Assembly: GCA_009841255.1 (NCBI GenBank)
Contig: VXMD01000046.1
Coordinates: 1 to 64,000 of the forward strand
DNA from: Candidatus Poribacteria bacterium
GTDB taxonomy: Bacteria > Poribacteria > WGA-4E > WGA-3G
Direction of reading: 5' to 3'
Length of the DNA stretch: 64,000 nt
Part shown: positions 19,160 through 25,568 of the stretch, in pieces
How the letters are laid out: each line of letters opens with the position of its first letter
Position numbering within the stretch: position 1 is the first letter of the stretch
Notes under the pieces: model-generated
Databases searched by the model: none
Seen by the model: the letters and a program-made list of their open reading frames with translations, nothing else
Told to the model about the DNA's origin: nothing
Position numbers and translations under genes: made by a program

Positions 19160-19936
19160 TTAACGTCCGGCTTTCAGGCGACCCCAGGTTGTAGAGAGTT
19201 TCCCCGCTGCTTCAACAGAGAGGGCATCCACGCCCTGTTCCATGAACGTATTGATTTCATCCTCGCTGAGTGCGCGATTCCAGAGACGGACCTCGTCGAT
19301 AATCCCAGAAAAAACATAGTTAAGGCGTTCACAATCCTGTCCAATCCTCCAAGGATCATCGTTGGCTTTGAGTTTACCGGGGGTATCCCCTTCCATTACC
19401 TCTTTGCCGTCATAGAAGATTTTGGTTTTCTTGGTATCGTTGGTAAAGGCGATATGCACAAATTCCCCAGTCTCAGGCAAATCGGTTGCAATATCGTTGC
19501 GACCTGCTTCGGTTTCAAGACGAATTTTGAAGACCCCGCCTTCACTGAACACGCCGTATTGAACTCTACCACCACACCCACCATGAACAGATTTACCGAC
19601 GACTTGACGGACACCGCCCCATTCCTCGGAGTTGATCCACGCCATAAACGAGAATTCATCCACGTTCAGTTTGGCAGTGCTTTCAACAGTGACAAAAACG
19701 TCGCTGCCTGGACCTCCAAATTCCAATGCCTTTCCGAATTTGCCATCAACCCATTTAGGATTGTCAATTACACCTTCATGCTTGTTTCCGCTAAGATCTT
19801 CCGCTTTGTCACCCTTGCCCTCATCGTAAGCGTGGTATACCACTAAGCCATCCAGAAATTCTTCTGGACCGATGGACATAGCGAGGGGTGCTACCATCAA
19901 AAGTAGTGTGATGGATAAACAAATAGTCAGTTTCAT
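19160..19936 (-). CDS. secreted LamG/concanavalin-like domain protein (paralogue 1)
   Basis: This 259-residue exported protein starts MKLTICLSITLLLMVAPLAM, a clear signal peptide. One LamG-like jelly-roll domain follows: GLVVYHAYDEGKGDKAEDLSG, FSFMAWINSEEW, HIAFTNDTKKTKIFYDG, and the end block GIIDEVRLWNRALSEDEI. The tail KLSTTWGRLKAG is conserved in the paralogue at 22.3-23.1 kb and in the pseudogene at 37.4 kb. The family usually binds carbohydrate or protein at the cell surface; no catalytic site is seen. ATG 19936 is chosen because the promoter (19971-19999, reverse) overlaps any longer frame. GGAGG lies ten bases upstream. Confidence 0.8.
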   Translation of the reverse strand: MKLTICLSITLLLMVAPLAMSIGPEEFLDGLVVYHAYDEGKGDKAEDLSGNKHEGVIDNPKWVDGKFGKALEFGGPGSDVFVTVESTAKLNVDEFSFMAWINSEEWGGVRQVVGKSVHGGCGGRVQYGVFSEGGVFKIRLETEAGRNDIATDLPETGEFVHIAFTNDTKKTKIFYDGKEVMEGDTPGKLKANDDPWRIGQDCERLNYVFSGIIDEVRLWNRALSEDEINTFMEQGVDALSVEAAGKLSTTWGRLKAGR

Positions 19937-19970
19937 AGTCAGAATTCCTCCGTGTAGGTAAAGATAAGGT

Positions 19971-19999
19971 ATTATAACAAACAGGAAAACATCTGTCAA
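19971..19999 (-). promoter_or_regulatory. consensus promoter for LamG paralogue 1
   Basis: On the reverse strand TTGACA (19994-19999) and TATAAT (19971-19976) are spaced by 17 bases. The -10 box ends 34 bases before the start codon. Confidence 0.75.
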
Positions 20000-22283: not shown

Positions 22284-23072
22284 TTAATGAGCAGTTTTGA
22301 TGTTGCCCCAAGTGGTGGCTAATTTCGCACGGGGATCAACAGACACACCTGCTTCTGATGCCATACCAATTTCGTCGGCACTCAAAGCGCGGTTCCAGAG
22401 GGAAACCTCGTCTATCAAGCCGGCGAAGACATAGTTAAGGCGTTCACAATCCTGCCCGATCCGCCACGGATCGTCGTTGGCTTTCAGTTCGCCCGGCACT
22501 TCGCCATCCACAACCGCTTCAGTGTTGATGTAGATTGTTGCGGTTTCACCATCGTTGGTAAAAGCAACGTGAATCCACTCACCTGTTGCTGGAAGATCGG
22601 TTGTGATGTCGGCTCTGCCGCCTTCGGTTTCAAAACGGAGTTTGAAAACCCCGCCTTCGCTGAATAGACCGTATTGTGTTCGACCCGCACAACCACCGTG
22701 GACGGATTTACCAACGATCTGGCGCGTGCCGTTCCAATGATCGGCGTTAATCCATGCCGCAAACGTACATTCGTTCACGTTCAAGAGATCGGTGCTTTCA
22801 ACGGTGACAAACACGTCGCTACCTTCGCCGCCAAAGCGAAGGGCACCGCCGATTTTTCCAGAATCCCAGTCAGGATTGGAAATTTCACCATCGTGTCCGT
22901 TCCCGCTCGAGTCTGCAGCGAGTGTGCCTTCTCCCTCATCGTAAGAATGATGCAGGATAAGCCCATCTGTGAGAGCTGCCGAGGCGAACGGTATGAATAG
23001 CATGGACAGTGCCACTGAGAAACACACGATCCCAAAGAATGAGAACTTGCGAGTCAATATTGTATTTTTCAT
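22284..23072 (-). CDS. secreted LamG/concanavalin-like domain protein (paralogue 2)
   Basis: This close relative of the gene at 19.2-19.9 kb (262 residues) has the same plan: a signal peptide (FFGIVCFSVALSMLFIPFASA) and one LamG domain. Shared blocks include HSYDEGEGTLAADSSGNGHDG, VGKSVHGGCAGRTQYGLFSEG, NDDPWRIGQDCERLNYVF and the end KLATTWGNIKTAH. The two genes flank the AAA ATPase gene and both have strong promoters, so they look like a recent duplication kept under similar expression. ATG 23072 has an AGGAGG about 12 bases upstream. The function is probably surface binding; no enzyme motif is visible. Confidence 0.8.
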   Translation of the reverse strand: MKNTILTRKFSFFGIVCFSVALSMLFIPFASAALTDGLILHHSYDEGEGTLAADSSGNGHDGEISNPDWDSGKIGGALRFGGEGSDVFVTVESTDLLNVNECTFAAWINADHWNGTRQIVGKSVHGGCAGRTQYGLFSEGGVFKLRFETEGGRADITTDLPATGEWIHVAFTNDGETATIYINTEAVVDGEVPGELKANDDPWRIGQDCERLNYVFAGLIDEVSLWNRALSADEIGMASEAGVSVDPRAKLATTWGNIKTAH

Positions 23073-24678: not shown

Positions 24679-24731
24679 AATACAACACAGCGAATGTATC
24701 CTACAAAAAATCCAGAAGGAGTTACTTAATA

Positions 24732-25568
24732 ATGGAAACCTACAAAGGTTACGTAAATCCACAGTTGGTTATCTCTGCTGAGGAATTGAAAGGGGCGCTC
24801 GACGACGAAACGTACTGCATCGTCGATACGCGACCGACGTATGAATATATCCGTGGACACATCCCGGGTGCGCTTCATTTAGATTTGTTCGGTTTAAGCC
24901 TCATTGATACTCGGAAAGAGACGTATGATACCTTTATGTGGATGATAGCATACCTGTTTCAACAACGCGGGCTTGATCCGAGTAAACCGATTGTATGGTA
25001 TGAAGACATATCGGGAACGCGCGCCTCGCGAGGGTTTTGGTTTTGTGAGTACTTAGGGCATCCCGAAACCCGCCTATTGGATGGCGGTTTCAAGGCGTGG
25101 CTGTCGGCAAATGGACCTGTGAGTACGGCGGGTGCTGAACCCCCGGAGGTTCCACCTTTTCCGATAAATGCGCAACACGATATACATATGGATGCGGATG
25201 TGATCCGTGTCCTGCTAAACCGAGACGATTTTGTGCCGCTCGATACACGCACTGACGATGAACACTACGGTAGGGTTGCCCGCGCAGAACGGGCAGGTGC
25301 TATTCCAGGTTCTATTCACATTGAATGGCTCGATAATCTTGACGAGGCGGGTGCATTCAAACCTGCTGATGCGCTTCGGGAGATGTATGAAGCCGTCGGT
25401 ATTACACCGGACAAGCAGGTCATGTGCTACTGACAGGGCGGCTACCGCTCTTCCCAAGCCTATTTGGCGTTGCGGCTCTTGGGCTATCCAAAAGTGAGCA
25501 ACTACATAGGTTCTTGGAAAGAGTGGGGTGACCGGCTGGATCTGCCGGTCGAGATTCCACAAGTTTAG
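24732..25568 (+). CDS. rhodanese-type sulfurtransferase, candidate selenoprotein (in-frame UGA at catalytic Cys)
   Basis: This is a tandem rhodanese of 278 residues if the UGA at 25431-25433 is read through. Domain 1 (about 15-125: [30 protein letters not shown]) lacks a catalytic Cys, as usual. Domain 2 runs from about 150: [16 protein letters not shown], then [26 protein letters not shown], then [11 protein letters not shown] and a TAG at 25566. Homologues read YCQGG(I/Y)R here, so the UGA (codon 234) takes exactly the active-site Cys. The 44 codons after it keep normal family sequence. A stem of CCCAAG/CTTGGG (25453-25483) starts 19 bases after the UGA, where bacterial SECIS hairpins lie. 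AAGGAG precedes ATG 24732. The alternatives are a pseudogene or a base error. Confidence 0.75.
25453..25483 (+). promoter_or_regulatory. candidate bacterial SECIS hairpin
   Basis: CCCAAG (25453-25458) pairs with CTTGGG (25478-25483), and CC/GG can pair inside across small bulges. The loop region is TATTTGGCGTTGC. The stem begins 19 bases after the UGA. SECIS elements are weakly conserved, so this is suggestive only; a smaller GCGG-CTA-CCGC stem at 25438-25448 is an alternative. Confidence 0.4.

Follow-up and report, generated by a model that had tools for sequence, protein, structure and literature searches.

Selenocysteine (Sec) forms of COG2897 rhodaneses were found in Sargasso Sea data in 2005 (PMC1088965), and a Sec rhodanese assigned to cd01449/COG2897 was described from the GOS data in 2008 (PMC2398784). 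A 2026 review lists a rhodanese-like selenoprotein form 4 with the motif UxxG (PMC13188914). The same review gives the consensus bacterial SECIS element as a stem of at least 4 bp with a loop of 3–9 nt, having a G in one of its first two positions and lying 16–37 nt from the UGA, and it recognizes a subset of SECIS elements that fall outside this model. In a 2017 sponge metagenome study, SelA and SelB were noted in most of the symbiont bins (PMC5649159). The first-pass annotation of the Poribacteria DNA studied here (64 kb in all, hereafter the window), which was made from the sequence alone, had proposed a candidate selenocysteine rhodanese and had noted that rhodanese selenoproteins have precedent in marine metagenomes. 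The proposal is now supported by the retention of the UGA in relatives, by the Sec machinery of the host genome, by Cys/Sec exchange among homologs and by selection on the sequence beyond the UGA.

The gene is on the plus strand at 24732–25568. Its ATG, at 24732, is preceded by a Shine-Dalgarno-like sequence (AGAAGGAG, 24714–24721), its sole internal stop is the TGA at 25431–25433, codon 234, and its frame ends with TAG at 25566–25568, giving a protein of 278 residues if the UGA is read through. Exactly 44 sense codons (25434–25565) separate the UGA from the TAG, as had been annotated. The readthrough protein has two Pfam Rhodanese stretches (E 1.9e-37) and the two-domain COG2897 (SseA) architecture, in which the active site is in the second domain. 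The first domain (residues 15–125, 24774–25106; PF00581 and translation) has an active-site loop without Cys, as is usual for the rhodanese fold. The solved structures nearest in sequence, 1e0c (E 9.7e-38) and 1uar (E 1.9e-36), are two-domain sulfurtransferases; these and 3hzu matched over the full length. In the alignment residue 234 pairs with the Cys in HCQTHHRS, the active-site loop of Azotobacter vinelandii RhdA (1e0c); this Cys is the catalytic Cys230 of that enzyme. The annotated placement of the UGA at the nucleophilic Cys of the family was therefore correct, and there are orthologs that have Cys at this position. The UxxG motif is present as UQGG (residues 234–237). The protein scored below the curated cut-offs of two models, NF041203 rhodanese_LYCAU (34 bits, cut-off 115; the window protein has YUQGG rather than the CxU motif) and the 3-mercaptopyruvate sulfurtransferase equivalog NF008557 (94.6 bits, cut-off 250). 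By homology, we infer that the frame encodes a sulfurtransferase of the two-domain COG2897/SseA type.

Scanning the window for Rfam families and tRNAs gave no matches. The gene order MATE-rhodanese-amidohydrolase-moeA is shared by nearer relatives only, and comparison of the neighborhoods across relatives provided no clue to the substrate. As an aside, two similar LamG-like proteins encoded on the minus strand (19160–19999 and 22284–23072) flank an AAA-type ATPase gene, and this set is seen again 5′ of the rhodanese in many relatives.

The source genome (5.73 Mb, 96% complete) contains all four of the components on which a Sec reading depends: a tRNA-Sec with anticodon TCA (78.1 bits), a full-length SelB (353 bits) that adjoins it, SelA (596 bits) and SelD (361 bits). 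The SelD (L019, G000:C31:125360-126283) is itself of the Sec type, with an in-frame UGA in the motif KCAGUASK. The hairpin that comes next, GCUC-CGGGU-GAGC, has the geometry of an ordinary SECIS, its CGGGU loop being 16 nt past the UGA. Bacterial Sec decoding of the usual kind is therefore to be expected in this genome. Another locus of this genome (G000:C67) encodes a Cys-type homolog with 29% identity to the window protein. The Sec enzyme thus has a companion and probably fulfills a special role.

Is the UGA a fixed feature of the gene? Among the 60 genomes sampled first, a single TGA was found at the same place in 35 of the 36 genomes of the same genus; the gene is absent from the remaining one, G027, whose genome is 81% complete. 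When 85 genomes from the phylum were compared, the TGA was present in 67 of 70 close orthologs (those with at least 57% identity); G037, G040 and G042, which all belong to one family, account for the remaining three and have Cys encoded by TGC or TGT there. Cys and Sec orthologs within one order are 57–60% identical. The first-pass view that the tail retains rhodanese sequence is borne out by the divergence within the genus, in which the mean amino-acid difference is 0.042 past the UGA and 0.109 ahead of it, while the synonymous difference past the UGA is 0.241; the low amino-acid relative to synonymous difference indicates that the tail is under strong selection at the protein level. No relative had a frameshift downstream of the UGA, and five orthologs with the internal UGA also end in TGA as a real stop. 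From these comparisons we conclude that the UGA codon is maintained by selection and that, as had been suspected, its coincidence with the catalytic codon is not chance.

The same arrangement is widespread outside the Poribacteria. A DNA pattern anchored on the TGA and a downstream SW-EWG motif, which matched once in the window and not at all in shuffles of the window, was used to scan GTDB genomes and gave at least 117 UGA loci; in all 117 that were listed, the UGA is flanked by rhodanese sequence both 5′ and 3′. The matches listed came from Poribacteria, Chloroflexi (SAR202, Dehalococcoidia), Binatia, Latescibacteria, Gemmatimonadota, Nitrospinota, Tectomicrobia, one Planctomycetota and one Nitrospirae, making about nine phyla among the matches listed, according to depositors' labels, some of which are plainly wrong. 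For example, the locus L165 (CAMBFS010000120.1), deposited as Klebsiella pneumoniae, carries a Sec rhodanese of Binatota type, and its label is almost certainly in error. No relatives were found in viral contigs. A tRNA-Sec scoring above the family cut-off was present in all 16 of the UGA-form host genomes tested, and in a second sample it was present in five of five Sec-form genomes versus 10 of 18 counted genomes with Cys forms only, some of which have only distant homologs.

Alternation of Cys and Sec at codon 234, which the first-pass annotation had named as a check, is seen within Poribacteria, within Latescibacterota, where the sample had 19 full-length orthologs with TGA and one (G178) with Cys, and across a tree of 88 proteins. 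That tree, made by a quick method with the codon-234 site left out, requires nine Sec/Cys changes, counted irrespective of direction, and six of these are forced by well-supported branches. The Cys-form genomes G037, G040 and G178 have retained tRNA-Sec, from which it follows that Cys forms do not merely follow loss of the Sec trait.

If the UGA is decoded as Sec, then what in the mRNA marks it? RNAalifold found no stable consensus for the window's clade and consequently we relied on tests of synonymous shuffles and pair probability. These drew attention to a hairpin next to the UGA on the plus strand (25435–25451; arms 25435–25441 and 25445–25451, loop CUA, −8.9 kcal/mol). Its positions (4–20 from the UGA) have a mean pair probability of ~0.6 compared to at most 0.1 in synonymous shuffles, and its z-score is −2.5 in Poribacteria and −2.0 in other phyla versus −0.8 in Cys orthologs of the same clade; these values, like the z-scores and pair probabilities that follow, come from related sequences and describe an effect rather than independent tests. 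In the window's clade, codons −1 to +7 relative to the UGA are constrained. The hairpin is outside the consensus SECIS model, as its triloop has no G and starts only 8 nt past the UGA. A different arrangement is found in Chloroflexota/Binatota and Nitrospinota/Tectomicrobia, in which the codons CGT-GCG-KCG-CAC past the UGA are synonymously invariant in 43 distinct sequences. They fold into a stem of seven pairs capped by a triloop, GGC or GUC, 17 nt past the UGA. This stem, which the window's clade does not have, conforms to the consensus SECIS model in the Chloroflexota/Binatota/Nitrospinota lineages and has z-scores of −2.5 or lower relative to synonymous shuffles, versus about 0 for Cys homologs. 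In one Tectomicrobia sequence (L189) the stem is preserved by paired base substitutions, two amino acids being changed in the process. Judged by these patterns, the codons past the UGA are constrained as RNA in the Sec forms, and this constraint is much weaker or absent in the Cys forms.

The hairpin adjacent to the UGA is a candidate for an atypical SECIS of the window gene, and its rival is the structure to which the first-pass annotation had pointed, a stem-loop starting 19 nt past the UGA (25453–25483, plus strand). That stem-loop can form, as a possible but weak second hairpin, yet it did not prove to be the main constrained structure, as its z-score is only about −1 compared to −2.5 for the adjacent hairpin, and its pair probability is ~0.3. 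It does have points in its favor: its candidate apical loop, GUUGCG, begins with G, U and is ~35 nt past the UGA, a spacing that fits the 16–37 nt model, and codons 12, 13, 14 and 16 past the UGA, which are within this stretch, are constrained. On the other hand, its upper stem consists of just three pairs, one of which is often broken. We therefore consider it possible, though as a minority reading, that in the window's clade the downstream loop is the functional SECIS and the hairpin beside the UGA does something else, such as slowing the ribosome or affecting termination. The alternative, to which we give somewhat less than even odds, is a shift of the Sec signal in the clade formed by Poribacteria, Latescibacterota and Gemmatimonadota, such that SelB would be directed by a hairpin abutting the UGA, while related lineages have a textbook SECIS at 17 nt. 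If so, the abutting hairpin would represent a separate class among bacterial SECIS elements, and a single selenoprotein family would have changed its SECIS while repeatedly exchanging Cys and Sec.

Other explanations dispense with selenium, or give it another task. One is that a nonsense mutation or a sequencing error produced the UGA, in a gene that is truncated or decaying. In its favor, the organism uses UGA as a normal stop and orthologs in relatives even end in TGA, but we regard this explanation as having a negligible chance of being correct, since the TGA is kept in nearly all close orthologs and in many phyla (see above) and conservation is higher in the tail than ahead of the UGA. Sequencing error was rejected because the same TGA occurs in dozens of separate assemblies, and a chance UGA is excluded by conservation across the genus, the phylum and other phyla. 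Another is that the UGA is read by near-cognate decoding, for instance as Trp, or is reassigned. Structures 3′ of stop codons can promote readthrough, and the hairpin beside the UGA departs from the textbook SECIS. Against this, homologs have Cys and never Trp at codon 234, tRNA-Sec is present in every Sec-form genome tested, a textbook SECIS follows the same UGA in sister lineages, and the same gene uses TGA as its terminal stop in relatives, an observation that led us to reject genome-wide reassignment outright; decoding without selenium thus seems very improbable. That the protein is a selenoprotein which carries selenium, for example as perselenide to SelD, rather than transferring sulfur in metabolism is a less remote proposition, albeit still an unlikely one. 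A role of rhodaneses in transporting selenium, and not sulfur alone, is discussed in the literature (PMC9369223), and in two SAR202/Dehalococcoidia loci, L104 and L148, a tRNA-Sec is within ~5 kb and ~2 kb, respectively, of the Sec rhodanese, possibly reflecting a link to selenium metabolism in those bacteria. However, no sel gene was found near the rhodanese in the window's genome or in any other locus examined apart from these two, and Cys forms occur in genomes that have no tRNA-Sec.

The explanation that best fits the observations as a whole, and which we consider very likely to be right, is that the gene encodes a two-domain rhodanese with a Sec nucleophile whose UGA is decoded via SelB and a downstream mRNA structure. 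The UGA at 25431–25433 is almost certainly read as Sec, judging from its conservation and genomic context, and the status of the product as a selenoprotein is strongly supported. In the proposed sequence of events, SelB would deliver Sec-tRNA(Sec) to the ribosome at this codon, directed by an mRNA structure just 3′ of it, and the ribosome would continue to the TAG at 25566. In the finished enzyme, the selenium would probably accept sulfane sulfur, with thiosulfate, a persulfide or mercaptopyruvate as donor, to form an Se-S intermediate, which would then probably hand the sulfur to a thiol acceptor. We infer these steps, from Sec insertion and SelB's choice of hairpin to the chemistry and substrate.

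During this work a second type of rhodanese was encountered, a short protein with two in-frame active-site UGAs in the motif LYUSU (L239, at G041:C77:60010-60489; L241; L243; L250), of which L248 and L249 are single-Sec versions. It recurs, with two or three TGAs, in Poribacteria families f2 and f4 and in G052, the f3 genomes having CSU instead, and a form with its TGAs was not found in the window's own genome. It resembles NF041203 (76 bits, cut-off 115), for which CxU with a single Sec is the listed form, and appears to be a double-Sec variant.

Why do such genes matter? Standard-code gene callers stop one codon before the active site and, as a result, enzymes of this kind are easily filed as truncated. 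In addition, the family offers a series made by nature: within one enzyme, sulfur and selenium have replaced each other as nucleophile on at least six occasions, making the benefit of selenium to a sulfurtransferase directly testable. Its two hairpin arrangements are also relevant to how much latitude a bacterial SECIS has in its placement relative to the UGA.

How, then, does the window gene compare with what has been described? NF041203 (form 3, CxU) also carries Sec in the active-site region of a rhodanese fold, but it is short and single-domained, whereas the window protein has two domains and the motif YUQGG. The closest solved structure by sequence, over the whole length, is RhdA; the active-site loop in both starts with C/U-Q and has an R five residues on, but RhdA has a Cys nucleophile in the loop CQTHHR and the window protein has UQGGYR. 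Form 4 of the review (representatives MCY3690685.1 and MQG53192.1) matches the window gene in motif and description, which is the extent of that comparison. The published Sec rhodaneses of COG2897 share with the window gene an active-site Sec, the UxxG motif (here UQGG), widespread Cys homologs and a marine origin, but they were represented by few metagenome sequences with no named hosts, while here the host genomes are known. Thus, the Sec COG2897 rhodanese was already known and the window gene is a well-supported further member; what our analysis adds is the host range of the family, its near-universal retention in Poribacteria, a count of its Cys/Sec exchanges and its two hairpin arrangements.
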